Shown: piece by piece, positions 21,850 through 28,048 of the stretch | How the letters are laid out: each line of letters starts with the position of its first letter | Position numbering within the stretch: position 1 is the stretch's first letter | NCBI RefSeq assembly: GCF_026341775.1 | Contig: NZ_JAPEOB010000004.1 | Coordinates: 186,001 to 250,000, forward strand | Origin: Streptomyces sp. NBC_00654 | Lineage (GTDB): Bacteria > Actinomycetota > Actinomycetes > Streptomycetales > Streptomycetaceae | Length of the DNA stretch: 64,000 bases | Direction of reading: 5' to 3' | The notes under the pieces: model-generated | What the model was told of the DNA's origin: nothing | Database searches by the model: none | The model's input: only the letters and a program-made list of their open reading frames with translations | Translations under genes and position numbers: made by a program

Positions 21850-23118
21850 TCAGGCTCGCTTGGACCTGCGGCGGGCCGCCAGGACCAGGCCGGTACCCAC
21901 GGCGAGTACCGCGGCGGTCCCGATGATCATCGGGACGGTGCCGCTGCTGCCCGTCGAAGCGAGGTCGCCGCCCTTGCCCGGCGTCTTGCTCGACGACGGG
22001 GCGGGCGTGCCCGGTACCGCGGGCTCGGAGGAACCGGAGGACGGGGTGCCGCTCTCCGTGGGCGGCGTCACCGAGGCGGACGGCGTGGCGTCCACCGGCG
22101 GCGTCGTCGTGGGGGTGTCGCTCGGCGTCGGTGTGGTGGTCGGGGGCTTCCCGGTCTCCGGAAGGCAGCCGGTGAAGGGGAAGTGGTGCGTCTCCGCGCC
22201 GCCCGAACCGTGCAGCGAGGCGACCCACACCGAGCCGTTGACCGGTGCGCCGGTACCCAGCTCCAGATGTGCCCGGGGTGCCAGCACGCTGCCGGGCCAG
22301 GCCGCCTTGCTGCTCTTGGTGACCGTGCGGGCCTCGGGGAAGTTCCACAGCAGCCGGGCACGGACCTTGCCGTCGGAGGCGCTCTGGAGCTTGTCGTCGA
22401 GTACGTAGTCCTGCCCACCGGACAGGAAGAAGCCGGTGGTCCCCGCCTTGGCCATGTCGTACGTCTCGCCGCTGACGTTGACGATCGCGGTGGCACCGGC
22501 CGGGATCTTGAGGTAGATGTCCTTGGCCTGCTCCAGCTGACCGGCGGTCACCTTGAAGATGTTGCGCCCGGTGTCGCTGCCCTTGAGGGTGAGCTTGGTG
22601 CCCTCCAGCGCGACGTCCGTGCCGCTGGTCACCGCTTCCCCGGCCAGTGCCGAGGAGTAGGCGCGGAGCTTGGTGAACTCGGCGTCGAAGTCGATCAGCC
22701 CGGCGTCCTTGCGGAACGTGCCGGAGTGCAGCTCGACCGCGCGGTCGCGGACCTCGCCGCCGACGACCGCGTTGCCCTTCATCACCGCGGTGACCGAACC
22801 GCCGTTGAGCAGGTCGCCGCGGACGACGAGCGAAGCCCGGCCGGGCAGCGCGTCGACCTCGGCCGCGGTCAGCTCATTGGCGACGCTGAATCCGCCGCGG
22901 AAGTCGGCGTTGCCACCCACGGCCACCGCGCCCTCCGCGTCGGGGGAATGGACATCGTCGCCGAGGACGAACTCGCCGTACTTACCGGCGATTCCGAAGG
23001 CGTCGGTGGTGCACCCTGCCGAGTCGGCGGGGGCGGCCTGTGCGGCCGGGACGGCCGTGAGGCCGAGAACGAGAGCTCCACCGAGCATGGCTGCTGCGGC
23101 GGTTGCGGTTATGCGCAT
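21850..23118 (-). CDS. Choice-of-anchor A surface protein with LAxTG sortase signal
   Basis: A 422-residue secreted cell-wall protein. An N-terminal signal peptide ends near AAQAAPAD; a choice-of-anchor A domain follows (YGEFVLGDDVHSPDAEGAVAVGG ... VVRGDLLNGG ... GSVLAPRAHLELGTGAPVNGS). Next come a Thr/Pro/Ser-rich spacer and a terminal LASTG motif, hydrophobic helix and RRRSKRA tail. LAxTG is the motif recognised by class E sortases of Streptomyces. The ATG at 23118 is chosen because the signal peptide starts there; 21 extra residues could be read from 23181. An adhesin or sheath role is likely. Confidence 0.88.
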   Translation of the reverse strand: MRITATAAAAMLGGALVLGLTAVPAAQAAPADSAGCTTDAFGIAGKYGEFVLGDDVHSPDAEGAVAVGGNADFRGGFSVANELTAAEVDALPGRASLVVRGDLLNGGSVTAVMKGNAVVGGEVRDRAVELHSGTFRKDAGLIDFDAEFTKLRAYSSALAGEAVTSGTDVALEGTKLTLKGSDTGRNIFKVTAGQLEQAKDIYLKIPAGATAIVNVSGETYDMAKAGTTGFFLSGGQDYVLDDKLQSASDGKVRARLLWNFPEARTVTKSSKAAWPGSVLAPRAHLELGTGAPVNGSVWVASLHGSGGAETHHFPFTGCLPETGKPPTTTPTPSDTPTTTPPVDATPSASVTPPTESGTPSSGSSEPAVPGTPAPSSSKTPGKGGDLASTGSSGTVPMIIGTAAVLAVGTGLVLAARRRSKRA

Positions 23119-23499
23119 GGGGCGTGATTCTCCAGCGGAGGTGGTTGTAAAGATTCCGTGGCGGTTGCCCATAGTTTTCACACAATCAGATATTGGTCAA
23201 GACCAATGCCCAAAGGGCTGGCGAAAAGCGTCAAATGACGGATTTGTTCGACTATGTGGGATCGGATGCGGCGCGGCCGGGCGGGGTCGTCGCCCCGCCT
23301 CTTCAGGCCAGAACACCCCCGCCGCCCGCACGTGGGAGGGGTGGTTCCCCTCGAAGGCGGGGGCGTGCGGAACCGGCCGGACATGGCGGGGCGCCGTCGC
23401 TCGCTCGCCGCGCGCCCGCCTCCCGGCCCGTGGTGACGCGCCGGGAGAGTTCGGCGCGGGCCGCGGGAAACGGGGCTGACTGTCCTGGGAAAGAATAGG
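23119..23499. promoter_or_regulatory. Upstream region of surface-protein gene
   Basis: Positions 23140-23240 are AT-rich and presumably hold the minus-strand promoter. The rest is GC-rich with partial inverted repeats (for example CCGCACG near 23329 with CGTGCGG near 23365). No gene can be supported here. Confidence 0.4.
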
Positions 23500-23528
23500 T
23501 TGCTGTCAATCTGAACGTTGACTAGAAT
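23500..23528 (+). promoter_or_regulatory. Predicted promoter of XRE-TPR regulator
   Basis: TTGCTG (23500-23505) and TAGAAT (23523-23528) are separated by 17 bases. The element overlaps TTGACT and a CTAG...CTAG dyad. It implies a 5-prime leader of about 210 bases before the regulator start at 23746. Confidence 0.5.
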
Positions 23529-23546
23529 TTTACTAGGTTGGTCAGT

Positions 23547-23609
23547 ATGCTTGTCGCGCCACGTTCGTTTGATCCAACCGGATGGCCCGTACCGCCTGCA
23601 TTACGATGA
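23547..23609 (+). CDS. Possible 20-residue upstream ORF with a TTA codon
   Basis: A tiny reading frame lies in the leader of the XRE-TPR gene (peptide ending GWPVPPALR), with a TTA leucine codon as its nineteenth codon. The ribosome site is weak (AGG about 9 bases upstream). It could be a regulatory uORF or chance; coding is not established. Confidence 0.25.
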   Translation: MLVAPRSFDPTGWPVPPALR

Positions 23610-23745
23610 TCTCGCAGATCAGGACGGCGGCAGAAGGCGCGGCCACGTCTGAAACTCCGGTGAAGACATATACGCCATATCCGCCGGTCCGGGAAAAGTT
23701 CGCTTCAGGCTCGCTTTCTCGAGACCTGTCAAGTGAGGGGTCACA

Positions 23746-25089
23746 GTGACCGCGATCGAAGGGCTGGGATCACGTATTCGGCGACTGCGCAGAGCTGCCG
23801 GTCTTTCCCAGGAGGCACTGGCCCGTCCCAACCTCTCCCCCAGCTACGTCTCCCTGCTGGAGGCCGGAAAGCGCGTCCCCTCGGAGGACGTCCTCGCGCA
23901 GCTCGCCGAGCGGTTGGGGTGTGATCCGGCCTATCTCATAGGGATGATCGCCAAGCCGGACTCGGTGGATCTGGAGATCGAGCTGCACTACGCGCAACTC
24001 GCCCTGCGCAACGGCGAATCGCAGGCGGCGCTGGAGACCTTCACCGCTCTGCTGGCCAAGTTGCCGGCCACCGACCGGACGGATCTGCGGTTCGCCGTGG
24101 AGCTCGGCATCGGCCAGTCCCTGGAGCATCAGGGCGAGCTGGAGGAGGCCGCCCGGAACTTCGAGTCACTGCTGCAGTGGTCCGCGGCGCAGGGGCGCGG
24201 CATCCTGGACCGGCTCAGCGTGGTCATGCCGCTGTGCCGGTGCTACCGCGAACTGGGCGACCTCTCGCACGCCATAGACGTCGCCGAGGAGGTGCTGGCC
24301 GAGGCGGACGCCGCGGACCTGCCGCCCACGGTCACACAGCTGGAGCTGCTGTCCACACTGATCGGTGTGTACTGCGAACGCGGTGACCTGCACCGGGCGA
24401 ACTTCCTCGCCGGCGAGGCGATCAGCCGTGCCGAGGTCATGTCCGACCGCCGGGCGCTCGGCGGCGCCTACTGGAACGCGAGCGTGGTCCTGCACCGGCG
24501 CGGACGGTCGAGCGAGGCCCTGGACCTGCTGAAGAAGGCCGTCGCCATCTATGCCGAGGGCGACGACGAGCGCGCGCTGGCACGGGTGCGCAATGCGCAC
24601 GCGACGGTGCTGCTGCAGTCGGACGACCCCAACCCCGAGGTCGCCAAGACGCTCCTCGAACAGAGCGCCGCCACCCTGCGCACCCTGGGCAGCAGCCTCG
24701 ACGTGGCCTACGTCGAGACGGCGCTGGCCCGCGCGGAGGTGATGCTCGGCTGTGCCGGGGCCGCGATCGAGCACGCCGGGGTCGCCCTTGACCTGCTGGG
24801 ACCCGAACACCGGCTGGAGAGCGCGCGCGTGCATCTCGTGCTTGCCGCCGCCCATCTGCTGCGCGACGACTACGACGCCGTACAGGCCGCGTACGAACGG
24901 GGGGCGTTGCTGCTCGAAGCCTCCGAGGCCGGGCGCCAGGCCGCCTTCGCCTGGTCGGAACTGGGCGAGATCCTGGAGAAGAGCGGGGAGAGCGAGCGCG
25001 CGGTATGGGCCTACCGCCAGGGGATGCGTCTGATGGGGCACCGCAGCTCGCTCGTCGCGAACACTCCGCGCCGGGTCCGGCAGGACTGA
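23746..25089 (+). CDS. XRE-family regulator with TPR sensor domain (RRNPP-like architecture)
   Basis: A 447-residue regulator with an N-terminal Cro/C1 helix-turn-helix (IRRLRRAAGLSQEALA, SPSYVSLLEAGKRVPSEDVL, residues 8-60). About eight TPR-like helical pairs follow over residues 75-430 (ELHYAQLALRNGESQAALETF, LSTLIGVYCERGDLHRANF, WSELGEILEKSGESERAVWAY). This layout is that of RRNPP receptors, which bind a re-imported secreted peptide through the TPR groove. GAGGGG is 5 bases before the GTG. It converges on a 49-residue secreted-peptide gene across a terminator. I infer control of the peptide cluster; no target is proven. Confidence 0.85.
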   Translation: MTAIEGLGSRIRRLRRAAGLSQEALARPNLSPSYVSLLEAGKRVPSEDVLAQLAERLGCDPAYLIGMIAKPDSVDLEIELHYAQLALRNGESQAALETFTALLAKLPATDRTDLRFAVELGIGQSLEHQGELEEAARNFESLLQWSAAQGRGILDRLSVVMPLCRCYRELGDLSHAIDVAEEVLAEADAADLPPTVTQLELLSTLIGVYCERGDLHRANFLAGEAISRAEVMSDRRALGGAYWNASVVLHRRGRSSEALDLLKKAVAIYAEGDDERALARVRNAHATVLLQSDDPNPEVAKTLLEQSAATLRTLGSSLDVAYVETALARAEVMLGCAGAAIEHAGVALDLLGPEHRLESARVHLVLAAAHLLRDDYDAVQAAYERGALLLEASEAGRQAAFAWSELGEILEKSGESERAVWAYRQGMRLMGHRSSLVANTPRRVRQD

Positions 25090-25131
25090 CGCTCCCTCAC
25101 ACCCTCCGCGCGCCCATCCGCCCCAGCGCCC

Positions 25132-25163
25132 CAGCGCCCCATGAGACCTCTCATGGGGCGCTG
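25132..25163. terminator. Bidirectional hairpin terminator
   Basis: A perfect 15-bp stem (25132-25146 with 25149-25163) with a 2-base loop separates the convergent XRE-TPR and small-peptide genes. Confidence 0.75.
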
Positions 25164-25232
25164 CATGCTGTACGGGGGCCGGTGCCGGGGCGCGGGCCTG
25201 TGGTGCGGCGCGGCGCGGGTACGGCCCGGACG

Positions 25233-25382
25233 TCAGCAGCAGAGTGGGATGTCGGTGTCGATCTCGCTGTTGTCGAGCATGACCGCCTCCGAACCCACGC
25301 CGCCCGCGACCGTCTCCACGGCGGCGGAGCTACCGGGCAGGAGAAGCAGGGCGGCCAGTAAGTAGACGGCGATCTTCTGCAT
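25233..25382 (-). CDS. 49-residue secreted peptide precursor with TTA codon (candidate signal peptide)
   Basis: A 49-residue reading frame has the layout of a secreted peptide precursor: Met-Gln-Lys start, a leucine-rich hydrophobic core (IAVYLLAALLLLPGSSAA), then an acidic C-terminal part ending NSEIDTDIPLCC. AGAGG lies about 9 bases before the ATG, and a candidate promoter is upstream. Codon 8 is TTA, so translation should depend on bldA in Streptomyces. It faces an XRE-TPR regulator, which suggests a peptide-pheromone role. The terminal Cys-Cys could also be a modification or metal-binding site. Similarity to known pheromones is not visible by eye. Confidence 0.6.
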   Translation of the reverse strand: MQKIAVYLLAALLLLPGSSAAVETVAGGVGSEAVMLDNSEIDTDIPLCC

Positions 25383-25436
25383 TGCAGACACCTCTCATTT
25401 GCCACGGCGATGGCCGTAGGGAGTGCGACGGGATCG

Positions 25437-25466
25437 AGCATGACAGTCCTCGACTGGGCCAGTCAA
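25437..25466 (-). promoter_or_regulatory. Predicted promoter of the 49-residue peptide gene
   Basis: On the minus strand TTGACT (25466-25461) and CATGCT (25442-25437) are 18 bases apart, giving a leader of about 50 bases. The -35 lies inside TTTATTGACT, a decamer repeated before the LuxR-type gene (28274-28265). Confidence 0.45.
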
Positions 25467-25536: not shown

Positions 25537-25610
25537 TATAATTGATGACATTTTTACGGCAATATCGAAGGGGAAAAAGTTTGTTACTCTGTGAGTCATA
25601 TTTGAGTCAT
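25537..25610 (+). promoter_or_regulatory. AT-rich promoter zone with GAGTCAT direct repeats
   Basis: This very AT-rich stretch holds a consensus TATAAT (25537-25542) without an obvious -35, and two GAGTCAT copies (25593-25599 and 25604-25610) one helical turn apart just before the AlaRS-like gene. A third GAGTCAT is at 28241 in the LuxR-type gene promoter. A shared regulator is inferred. Confidence 0.45.
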
Positions 25611-25626: not shown

Positions 25627-26916
25627 GTGTCCGGCAGTGGGGCGAGGTGGCCGGTGCGGAGTTCGCCCGGCGCCATTCATCAGGTGGCGGACGCCCTGGC
25701 AGCCCGCGGCTACCGCTGGCAGCCGCCGCCCCCGCTGGGAGAGGCCGGCGGCTCGGGACCGTTCGCGCACTACGGCGCCGCGTCCTGGATCGACCCCCTG
25801 CTCCCGCCGTTGTCCCACTCGCGCGGCGGGGTGCACACCGTGCGCTGGTCCATCAGGACCCACCGCCTGCACGGCGTGCCGACCGCGATGCCGCCCTCGG
25901 CCCAGCGGGTGCTGAGCGCGGTCTGGGCGGGCCCCCGCCCGCCGCAGGTCCCCGTCGGCGACGTGACCGGCGCACTGGCGCACGCGGGCCTGGACCCGCG
26001 GCGGCTGGCCTGTGTCGTCTCGGCGCGGCCCCCGGACGGCAACGCCGTGCACGAGGCGCTGACGGCCCATCCGGTCACCGCCGCGGGACAGGTGAGCATC
26101 GACACGTGCGCCGGCGCGGCGCTGCGGCGTACGGTGCTGGCGGTGCGGGCGCACGTCAGCATCGAGTATCCGGTCGGCGCCCCCTGCAGCGGCACCTGCC
26201 GTCCCGGCTGCCGGTGCGGCCGCTATCTGGTGCTGGCCCGGCTCCAGTTCGGGGAGACGTCCCGGGGCCGCTCCCTGCTGGAGGCCGTCGTCCTGGAGAA
26301 CGGCCTGCTCGGCGCCCTGGGAGACACGCGCGAGCCCTTCGCCGTCCGGCGGTTCGCGCCCCTGGTGCGCAGCGCCCACGAGTCGCTGCCGGACCAGGTG
26401 GCGGCCGCCGCCGGTGCGGAGCACGTACGGCTGCTCGTCGACCGCTGCTTCACGGCCGCGCTGCTGCTCGGGCAGGGGGTCGTGCCGGGTGCGCGCGGGC
26501 GGGCCCATGTGGTGCGGCGGCTGCTGCGGCAGGCCGGGGTCCGGCTCTTCCTCGCGGGCGGCTCGCTGACCCGGCTCGACCACCTCGTGGGGGTGGCGGA
26601 CGGCTCGGTCCGCGCCGAACTGGGCTTCGCCCCCCTCACGGTCGTCCTGTCCGACACCGTACGCACCGAGCGCGAGGGCCTGGCGCGGGTGCTCGCCCGT
26701 GCGCCCGTACTGCTGCACCGGGCCGTCGCGGGCCACCGGGAGCCGGCCGCGCGGGCGGACGCCGTACTGCGTCTGCGCAATGAGCACGGTGTGCCCCTGG
26801 ACCTGGCCATGACGTGGTGCCGGGAGAACGGCATCTCCGTCTCGCTGAGGGATGTGGCACGGCTGGAACGGAGCGCGCGGGGGCCGGCGAGGCGGGGTGT
26901 CCGGCCGGAGGGCTGA
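25627..26916 (+). CDS. Alanyl-tRNA-synthetase-like protein, degenerate catalytic motifs
   Basis: A 429-residue protein that resembles the N-terminal half of alanyl-tRNA synthetase. CSGTCRPGCRCGRYL matches the Cys-rich CGPGCDCGRY insertion before the EIWNLVF strand. The block RLLVDRCFTAALLLGQGVVP then GARGRAHVVRRLLRQAG matches the ADHIRT...DGVLPSNEGRGYVLRR helix region. The class II catalytic residues are poorly kept (HTVRWSIRTHRLHGVPT where motif 2 should be), and the editing and C-Ala domains are absent. GGAGG is 4 bases before the GTG. It may bind aminoacyl-tRNA or an aminoacyl adenylate for the peptide pathway; function is unproven. Confidence 0.6.
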   Translation: MSGSGARWPVRSSPGAIHQVADALAARGYRWQPPPPLGEAGGSGPFAHYGAASWIDPLLPPLSHSRGGVHTVRWSIRTHRLHGVPTAMPPSAQRVLSAVWAGPRPPQVPVGDVTGALAHAGLDPRRLACVVSARPPDGNAVHEALTAHPVTAAGQVSIDTCAGAALRRTVLAVRAHVSIEYPVGAPCSGTCRPGCRCGRYLVLARLQFGETSRGRSLLEAVVLENGLLGALGDTREPFAVRRFAPLVRSAHESLPDQVAAAAGAEHVRLLVDRCFTAALLLGQGVVPGARGRAHVVRRLLRQAGVRLFLAGGSLTRLDHLVGVADGSVRAELGFAPLTVVLSDTVRTEREGLARVLARAPVLLHRAVAGHREPAARADAVLRLRNEHGVPLDLAMTWCRENGISVSLRDVARLERSARGPARRGVRPEG

Positions 26917-27010: not shown

Positions 27011-28048
27011 TCAGTCGGCGGACGCGGCGTGCAGGGGTTCCTCGTCGAGGAGGCCCTGCTGTGCGGCGAGCACCCCGGCCTGGAACCGGCTCTCCGCGCC
27101 GAGTTCCTCCATGATGTCGGCGATGTGCTTGCGGGCGGTCCGCAGCGACATCCCGATGCGGCGGGCGATGGTCGCGTCCTTCATGCCCGCCGTGAGCAGC
27201 CGAAGGATGGTCCGGTCGATGTCCTTGGCGACGAGCTCCAGGCCGTCGGTGGCGGCGTCGGAGAACGGGGTGGCCTGCGTCCACTCCTGCTCGAACACGT
27301 CGCACAGATAGCTCACGATGGACGGCTCCCGGATCACCACGGCGCCCCAGGTGTCCCCGCGCTCGGGTATGAAGGCCAGCTTGCGGTCGAAGACGATCAG
27401 CCGGCCGAACAGTTCGTGCCGGGTACGGTACTCGGCGCCGCGGGCCGAGAGGGTCGCGACATAGGCCTGACTGGGGCCGTTGAAGCGCGCGGTGTGGTGG
27501 TAGAGCGTACGGATCCGCACGCTGCGGGCCAGCATCGCGGTGTCGCGGGGGAGGGCCTCCCGCAGCACTTCGGGGACCCGGTTGCCGCCCGGCTGGCTGG
27601 TGAGCATCTCCTGCGTGCACTCCTGGGAGGCCAGGGTCAGGGCGGCGCGCACCTCCTGCGGTCCGGGGATGATCTCGAAGCCGACGGGCAGCCGGCTCAG
27701 GCTCTCCAGGTAGTGGCCCCGCAGGCCCGCGAACTGCTCGCGGATGTCGTGCAGTTCGGCCTTCTGGCTGCGGATCGCCGACTCCATGGACGTGGTCACC
27801 ACGGCGGCCACGAGATCCGGGTCCACCGGGCGGAGGCGGTCGGGGTCGTCCACTTCCGGCCGGAGGAGTCCGAGTTCGGTCAGGGAGGCCACGGCCGACT
27901 CCAGCTCGGCGCGGTCCAGGCCCAGTTCGCGGCCGGCGTGGTCGGGGTCCATCCTGCCGTTCCTCGCCACCCACCGGTACAGGGCGACTTCCGTGTCGCC
28001 GGGCCGCGTGGGCGGTGCGGGCGACCGGCCTTGGTTCACTGCGAACAC
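27011..28048 (-). CDS. LuxR-type regulator with degenerate N-terminal winged helix
   Basis: A 345-residue transcription factor of a type common in actinomycete antibiotic clusters. The N-terminus has a TrmB-like winged helix (EVALYRWVARNGRMDPDHAGRELGLDRAELESAVASLTELGLL). The middle is a coiled and sensor-like region, and the C-terminus (about 275-330) a LuxR HTH (DRTILRLLTAGMKDATIARRIGMSLRTARKHIADIMEELGAESR). The GTG at 28048 has GGGG about 6 bases upstream. It is divergent from the NRPS run across a 625-base control region, and is a likely pathway regulator. Confidence 0.88.
   Translation of the reverse strand: MFAVNQGRSPAPPTRPGDTEVALYRWVARNGRMDPDHAGRELGLDRAELESAVASLTELGLLRPEVDDPDRLRPVDPDLVAAVVTTSMESAIRSQKAELHDIREQFAGLRGHYLESLSRLPVGFEIIPGPQEVRAALTLASQECTQEMLTSQPGGNRVPEVLREALPRDTAMLARSVRIRTLYHHTARFNGPSQAYVATLSARGAEYRTRHELFGRLIVFDRKLAFIPERGDTWGAVVIREPSIVSYLCDVFEQEWTQATPFSDAATDGLELVAKDIDRTILRLLTAGMKDATIARRIGMSLRTARKHIADIMEELGAESRFQAGVLAAQQGLLDEEPLHAASAD

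Follow-up and report, generated by a model that had tools for sequence, protein, structure and literature searches.

An XRE-TPR regulator and a small secreted-type peptide ending in Cys-Cys form a conserved, probably RRNPP-like gene pair in Actinomycetota

Inspection of a 64,000-nt stretch of the Streptomyces sp. NBC_00654 genome (contig NZ_JAPEOB010000004.1, positions 186,001 to 250,000; hereafter, the window) revealed a gene for an XRE-TPR regulator (the receptor) facing a small ORF for a propeptide, with 143 bases between their stop codons (Table 1). Open frame and Pfam matches of the former, and translation of the latter with its hydrophobic leader and DIPLCC end, agree with what an earlier note had described at this locus. 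On the other side of the regulator lies a gene for a choice-of-anchor A protein (21850-23181), whose C-terminal sortase-type, LAETG-like motif scored just under the cut-off.

Table 1. Features of the receptor–propeptide locus, in window coordinates.
Feature	Position	Strand	Basis
XRE-TPR receptor/transcription factor	23746-25089	+	Single open frame, 447 aa; Pfam HTH and TPR
Helix-turn-helix (HTH) domain, residues 7-64	23764-23937	+	HTH_31 7-62, HTH_3 11-64
TPR superhelix, residues 73-429, putative peptide-binding groove	23962-25032	+	Model helices; MalT, Rap, NprR, AimR among fold matches
49-aa propeptide, hydrophobic leader, convergent with receptor	25233-25382	-	Translation MQKIAVYLLAALLLLPGSSAAVETVAGGVGSEAVMLDNSEIDTDIPLCC
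DIPLCC-stop, conserved C-terminal tail, putative mature signal	25233-25253	-	Tail conservation
TTA codon, codon 8 of propeptide	25359-25361	-	
GAGAGG, ribosome-site-like, 8 nt before propeptide ATG	25391-25396	-	
Operator-like palindrome TTGACTGGCCCAGTCGA, including -35-like TTGACT of propeptide promoter	25450-25466	-	9/10 to TTGAC-N7-GTCAA
Operator-like half-sites GTTACTCTGTGAGTCAT and GAGTCAT before AlaRS-like gene	25583-25610	+	2 mismatches
Weak operator-like site upstream of receptor gene	23529-23545	+	TTTACTAGGTTGGTCAG, 3 mismatches, chance level alone
AlaRS-like protein gene, divergent from propeptide	25627-26916	+	tRNA-synt_2c match 229-423; synteny
LuxR-type regulator	27011-28048	-	
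NRPS cluster	from 28674 on		

C-terminal of its HTH, the receptor matched TPR_MalT/TPR_12 in Pfam, and its AlphaFold2 model reached a mean pLDDT of 91.7. PlcR was the best natural chain in the match list of the receptor profile (E 3.4e-13, profile positions 3-190, covering the HTH and first TPRs), and MalT III surpassed the RRNPP proteins as a fold match to the receptor TPRs; as regards common descent with PlcR, NprR and Rap, both comparisons are to be read with TPR and HTH being common domains. Against the NsdA family (NF053720), the receptor scored 27.3 bits, under the curated cut-off of 75 bits, and is thus not a member of that family by this measure.

The propeptide carries a Lys near its start, a hydrophobic core and the tail EIDTDIPLCC, with a stretch of small residues (GSSAA) picked out by eye as a possible cleavage site; an alternative in-frame GTG 9 nt upstream of the ATG would extend it to 52 aa. 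Excerpts of a survey of RRNPP systems (PMC10075063) describe propeptides of 10–100 aa that are Sec-secreted and matured outside the cell, encoded adjacent to TPR-containing receptors of 250–500 aa. The window's receptor falls inside this size range and has TPRs by Pfam and model, its propeptide gene adjoins it, and precursor lengths are within the given span as well (38–77 aa across 86 precursors). Bearing on secretion, a hydrophobic core is present in the propeptide and the precursors, "signal-like" being defined here by hydrophobicity and start sites.

Queried on its own, the propeptide (P0002) found no relative except itself among 5.8 billion proteins, and a single other, weak match, inside a 340-aa frame, in 295 genomes; the precursor family is visible only via the receptor. 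Ten precursors hit no Pfam or NCBIfam family above cut-off. A DIPLCC-like tail pattern matched five times in 295 genomes, a number not above chance since the reversed control pattern gave ten; three of the five, including the window's, adjoin a receptor and have a leader, and the other two have neither. The peptide had been thought too small for routine annotation, a view that needs qualifying for the longer related precursors, some of which are annotated as hypothetical proteins (e.g. WP_008741297.1, 71 aa).

Receptor homologues were found in 14 of 295 same-genus genomes (E 1e-60) and, with receptor profile A1, in 29 of 200 family and 67 of 394 class genomes (1e-45) and 22 of 246 phylum genomes (1e-40), the own genome being counted each time. 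The scan for partner ORFs covered 133 loci with 144 receptor genes, excluding the own-genome paralogues L002–L005 and 16 weaker receptor places from the family and class genome searches. At 82 of the 133 loci, a small signal-like ORF with Cys-Cys as its very last residues lay within 1 kb, a count corrected to 84 of 132 upon adding L092–L094, whose peptides had been identified under other locus ids, and removing L034, the same record as L026. Absence of the small ORF beside homologous regulators, which the earlier note had set down as grounds for giving up the proposed signalling pair, is hence not what these loci display. Three further loci (L008, L149, L150) have CC followed by 2–5 residues, and seven have a precursor in the same place with a similar leader and another tail, of Trp/Pro type in six. 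This brings precursors of any kind to 94 of 132 loci, the remaining 38 being without an adjacent partner by the scan rules; receptor loci share ancestry, so that these counts are not independent events. The arrangement of 98 precursors (99 placements less L034) was divergent upstream in 73, convergent downstream in 22 and same-strand in three cases.

Individual loci depart from the simple pair. At L080, L086, L089 and L104, two different CC precursors flank the receptor, the divergent one ending for example in PGDFCC and the convergent one in GGSDFCC. L095–L100 carry tandem receptor paralogues, the second copy matching the profile only from around residue 71–75 and seemingly lacking the HTH, and have no CC precursor by the scan rule. 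The own-genome paralogue L002 has no CC-type ORF either. A receptor with a GGxWCC-type precursor is also kept in a family of small genomes (f25, 1.6–2.2 Mb; L149–L151).

Beyond this set, a plasmid collection yielded 16 receptor matches; of eight inspected, three had a CC precursor (Mg1, ADI95-16 and Nonomuraea) and five had no credible one adjacent. Among 22 more distant receptors, ORFs ended in CC at two, in CCG at one and in W/F-P tails at 11 (e.g. NWPHH, KWPWG, SFPGP; ORFs of 28–40 aa), these tails having been sorted by eye and the W/F-P type having no separate control. Phage and viral collections contained no credible receptor homologue with a CC peptide: the copies comprised one partial contig from feces, labelled phage (34%), and three short partial viral matches, for which the CC-ORF scan, run on fixed coordinates, is weak.

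To what extent might such ORFs arise by chance? In the flanks, 139 kb in total at 500 bp to either side of the 133 loci, 85 of 179 signal-like ORFs of any tail ended in CC, the second commonest tail occurring six times. Dinucleotide-shuffled flanks gave a mean of 0.025 signal-like CC ORFs over all 133 flank sets (40 runs), reversed flanks gave none, and none of 60 signal-like ORFs in 144 kb of background away from receptors ended in CC. NsdA-family XRE-TPR regulators of Streptomyces, likewise TPR-like and numerous (13–46 matches per genome in 25 genomes), differ from the present receptors in that a CC-ending ORF lay within 600 bp at only one of 30 loci, and this was an 89-residue Cys-rich frame, unlike these precursors and unlikely to be a gene. 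In five of six groups of related precursors, pN/pS values of 0.29–0.41 indicated purifying selection on the ORF; the sixth (0.78) had more change behind the leader.

The Cys-Cys end is the most constant precursor feature. Around the window's receptor, the nearest group (45–72% identity, 13 loci without L034) has a D/G-[IVF]-P-[LA]-CC tail at 12 loci, including L008 with its extension and plasmid pSMg1-1 of Streptomyces sp. Mg1, whose DIPLCC precursor is WP_008741297.1; the thirteenth, L010, has a secreted-type ORF ending LDVPPPKMQ. Only precursors of the D/G-x-P-[LA]-CC subgroup usually have an acidic residue ahead of the tail, so that the acidic part of the earlier expectation of conserved acidic residues plus Cys-Cys applies to this subgroup. 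At L157 (7833-8045) and L009 (3287-3463), the DIPLCC precursor is followed by another small ORF of secreted type, with VNNTGS in common between the two. The TTA codon reported in the window's peptide gene is indeed there, but TTA occurs in only 3 of 86 precursors; gating by bldA was consequently dropped as a part of the system and is at best a local detail.

Across precursors, tails vary and leaders are kept. Profile A2, built on 15 precursors of family f17 plus a single one from Nonomuraea (16 in all), retrieved at least 41 relatives, whose leaders are in most cases strongly conserved; among the 41 listed, which are protein sequences without genomic context, the end is CC in 24 and something else, chiefly of Trp type, in 17. 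The tail is repeated in four of them, as WTHAD three times in P0134 and as WTYP-type repeats in P0144, P0153 and P0157. Intragenic duplications are described as frequent in RRNPP propeptides in the survey excerpts (PMC10075063).

A search of the regions upstream of precursors identified TTGAC-N7-GTCAA as the top-ranking perfect 5-bp inverted repeat (23 of 86 upstreams), as compared to two or three occurrences of the commonest repeat in shuffled upstreams. Sites of 9/10 or better were present in 31 of 86 upstreams against 0.32 expected; without the duplicate L034, these figures become 23 of 85 and 30 of 85, leaving 55 of 85 with no such site. The palindrome occurs mostly in the window's family and seldom outside it; a different upstream stretch, ATGACAGTATTGGACTA, is common to 12 loci, most if not all of which belong to family f19. 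In 25 of 30 cases, the palindrome sits 37–72 bp before the precursor start, and one half-site forms a -35-like TTGAC. In the 12-Mb genome G1063, the exact motif TTGACT-N5-AGTCAW occurs only twice, once before each precursor, and with one mismatch allowed, it was rarer than the control pattern in each of the three genomes searched (6, 3 and 9 vs. 15, 16 and 12). Better palindromes than the weak site upstream of the window's receptor gene are found in the matching place at L023 and L019.

Within the window, no site other than the palindrome of the propeptide promoter comes within one mismatch of TTGACT-N5-AGTCAW, and the next best precedes the AlaRS-like gene. This placement lends no support to the proposal that the pair guards or controls the NRPS genes, and a motif link to the NRPS operon was rejected, as only three-mismatch sites were available there, which in the window are at chance level (22 observed, 13.7 expected; 22 reached in 7 of 100 shuffles). 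Some receptor–precursor loci lie near NRPS or SARP/P450 genes.

The AlaRS-like gene itself, whose Pfam match is limited to the residues given in Table 1 and preceded by a Cys-rich stretch, looks like a receptor target. Besides the window, G020, G1063 and plasmid W02 (60%, 55% and 57% identity, respectively) have it divergent from a D[IL]PLCC precursor, and each of the four copies is preceded by one or more AGTCA half-sites; relatives of 31–34% identity lie near precursors at L026, L033 and L007. Such matches adjoin DxPLCC precursors only, save one of 26% in L023, 8 kb from the receptor; for most loci, this neighbour check covers only ~1.5 kb of flank. Seen with the chemically unusual C-terminal CC, the company of this gene might suggest that the peptide is a RiPP-like product or scaffold processed at its Cys-Cys end, with the AlaRS-like protein possibly taking part in tRNA-dependent modification and the XRE-TPR protein a merely local regulator. 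We regard this as rather improbable: apart from the L023 match, the AlaRS-like gene is restricted to DxPLCC precursors in the flanks covered, and neighbours differ among annotated loci while the TPR regulator is the constant partner.

The six receptors closest to the window's (74–85%) have no adjacent precursor; if the pair is functional, one would be expected elsewhere in these sources. A tail pattern was therefore run on five genomes or records, namely the own one and four sources for the orphan receptors, and recovered off-locus D[IL]PLCC precursors of signal type in two genomes and one plasmid of the four: on another contig in G020, as two precursors 29 kb from the receptor in G1063, and as two on W02 at ~2 and ~7 kb, the second being less sure as it needs an internal Met. 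W01, where only the plasmid was searched, gave none. The same pattern also produced four chance-looking matches (reversed control, six). Upstream of the off-locus precursors, the operator is present at 9/10 in four of five and at 7/10 in the fifth.

XRE-type antitoxins beside small ORFs are a familiar layout, and an operator lying over the promoter would fit autorepression, as expected of a toxin-antitoxin or self-limiting module with the hydrophobic peptide as membrane-active toxin and the XRE-TPR protein as transcriptional antitoxin. The precursors, however, are sometimes far from the receptor; it is their last two to six residues that are conserved or swapped, rather than the hydrophobic core alone, and tail repeats suit a released unit, all of which makes this explanation improbable.

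Two adjacent cysteines are able to coordinate metal or to close into a disulfide, and the receptor has a nearly invariant cysteine, Cys166, on one of its TPR helices. Even so, a peptide acting inside or at the membrane of its producer by Cys-Cys redox or metal sensing, not as a cell-to-cell signal, is highly improbable, given that 13 of 17 receptors paired with CC-free tails retain Cys166 and that Trp/Pro tails replace CC in matching precursors. Pairing of Cys166 with ligand cysteines was rejected for the same retention alongside CC-free tails. Another receptor residue, at position 180, is Gly in 76 of 98 CC cases and in none of 18 others, and Gly, Ala or Cys in all 98, with Ala in five of the 18. 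The CC cases count L034 and five off-locus precursors, and the others include L131, whose tail GPLNNAE is neither CC nor Trp type. As the position was chosen among all columns and tracks the tail in about three independent contrasts (sign test p 0.25), this covariation is only suggestive.

Among known systems, PlcR–PapR of the Bacillus cereus group likewise combines an HTH and TPRs in its receptor, and the PlcR–PapR7–DNA complex was a Foldseek match to the receptor model, at rank 24. PapR7 is given as ADLPFEF in an excerpt of PMC6568020 and has D-[LI]-P-[LF] in common with DIPLCC. The present pair differs in its longer receptor, its phylum, the Cys-Cys end of its tail and the mostly divergent or convergent arrangement of the two genes. 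NprR–NprX and Rap–Phr of Bacillus are more remote, with just 9–13% identity to the receptor and a different ligand class, and the AimR–AimP arbitrium system is phage-borne, unlike the receptor–CC peptide pair. In the literature excerpts consulted, RRNPP systems are described from Firmicutes and their mobile elements; those of PMC10075063 draw their examples from Firmicutes and viruses and present Actinomycetota signals as typically small molecules, and those of PMC12224297 and PMC8068269 mention XRE or TPR regulators and not this pair. Among the open PMC papers listed in literature searches, there was no description of a Cys-Cys peptide/XRE-TPR receptor family.

The RRNPP-type architecture pointed out in the earlier note thus proved to be conserved together with the pairing itself; from co-occurrence, the constant tail, selection on the ORF and shared operator-like sites, we infer that the pair is quite probably an RRNPP-like peptide signalling module. 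By analogy with known members, the precursor would be exported through its N-terminal signal and cut down extracellularly to its last six or so residues, approximately DIPLCC; this C-terminal peptide would be taken back into the cell and bind in the TPR groove. The XRE-TPR receptor, for its part, may bind the TTGAC-N7-GTCAA-type palindromes overlapping the -35 of the precursor promoter as well as the related half-sites before the AlaRS-like gene, and the imported peptide would alter this binding, by release or change. Since this site lies over the promoter, the most likely sign of control is autoinduction, with the peptide lifting repression.

More generally, the peptide–receptor pair most likely represents a new RRNPP-like signalling variant that is widespread in Actinomycetota. 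We favour, with some reserve, a broader reading in which these precursors would belong to an ancient class of ribosomally made pheromones spanning the phylum, whose signals are short C-terminal tails with Cys-Cys at the end of most and Trp/Phe-Pro motifs in the others. Every signal would be read by an XRE-TPR receptor of its own, in control of the gene for that signal, and in the DxPLCC branch, the AlaRS-like protein would be a conserved, co-regulated third component. The conserved partner suggests a so far overlooked family of peptide signals in bacteria whose signalling is held to rely mainly on small molecules. If true, synthetic six-residue peptides would be testable switches in antibiotic-producing actinomycetes, and peptide quorum sensing in Actinomycetota would become directly testable with cheap reagents.
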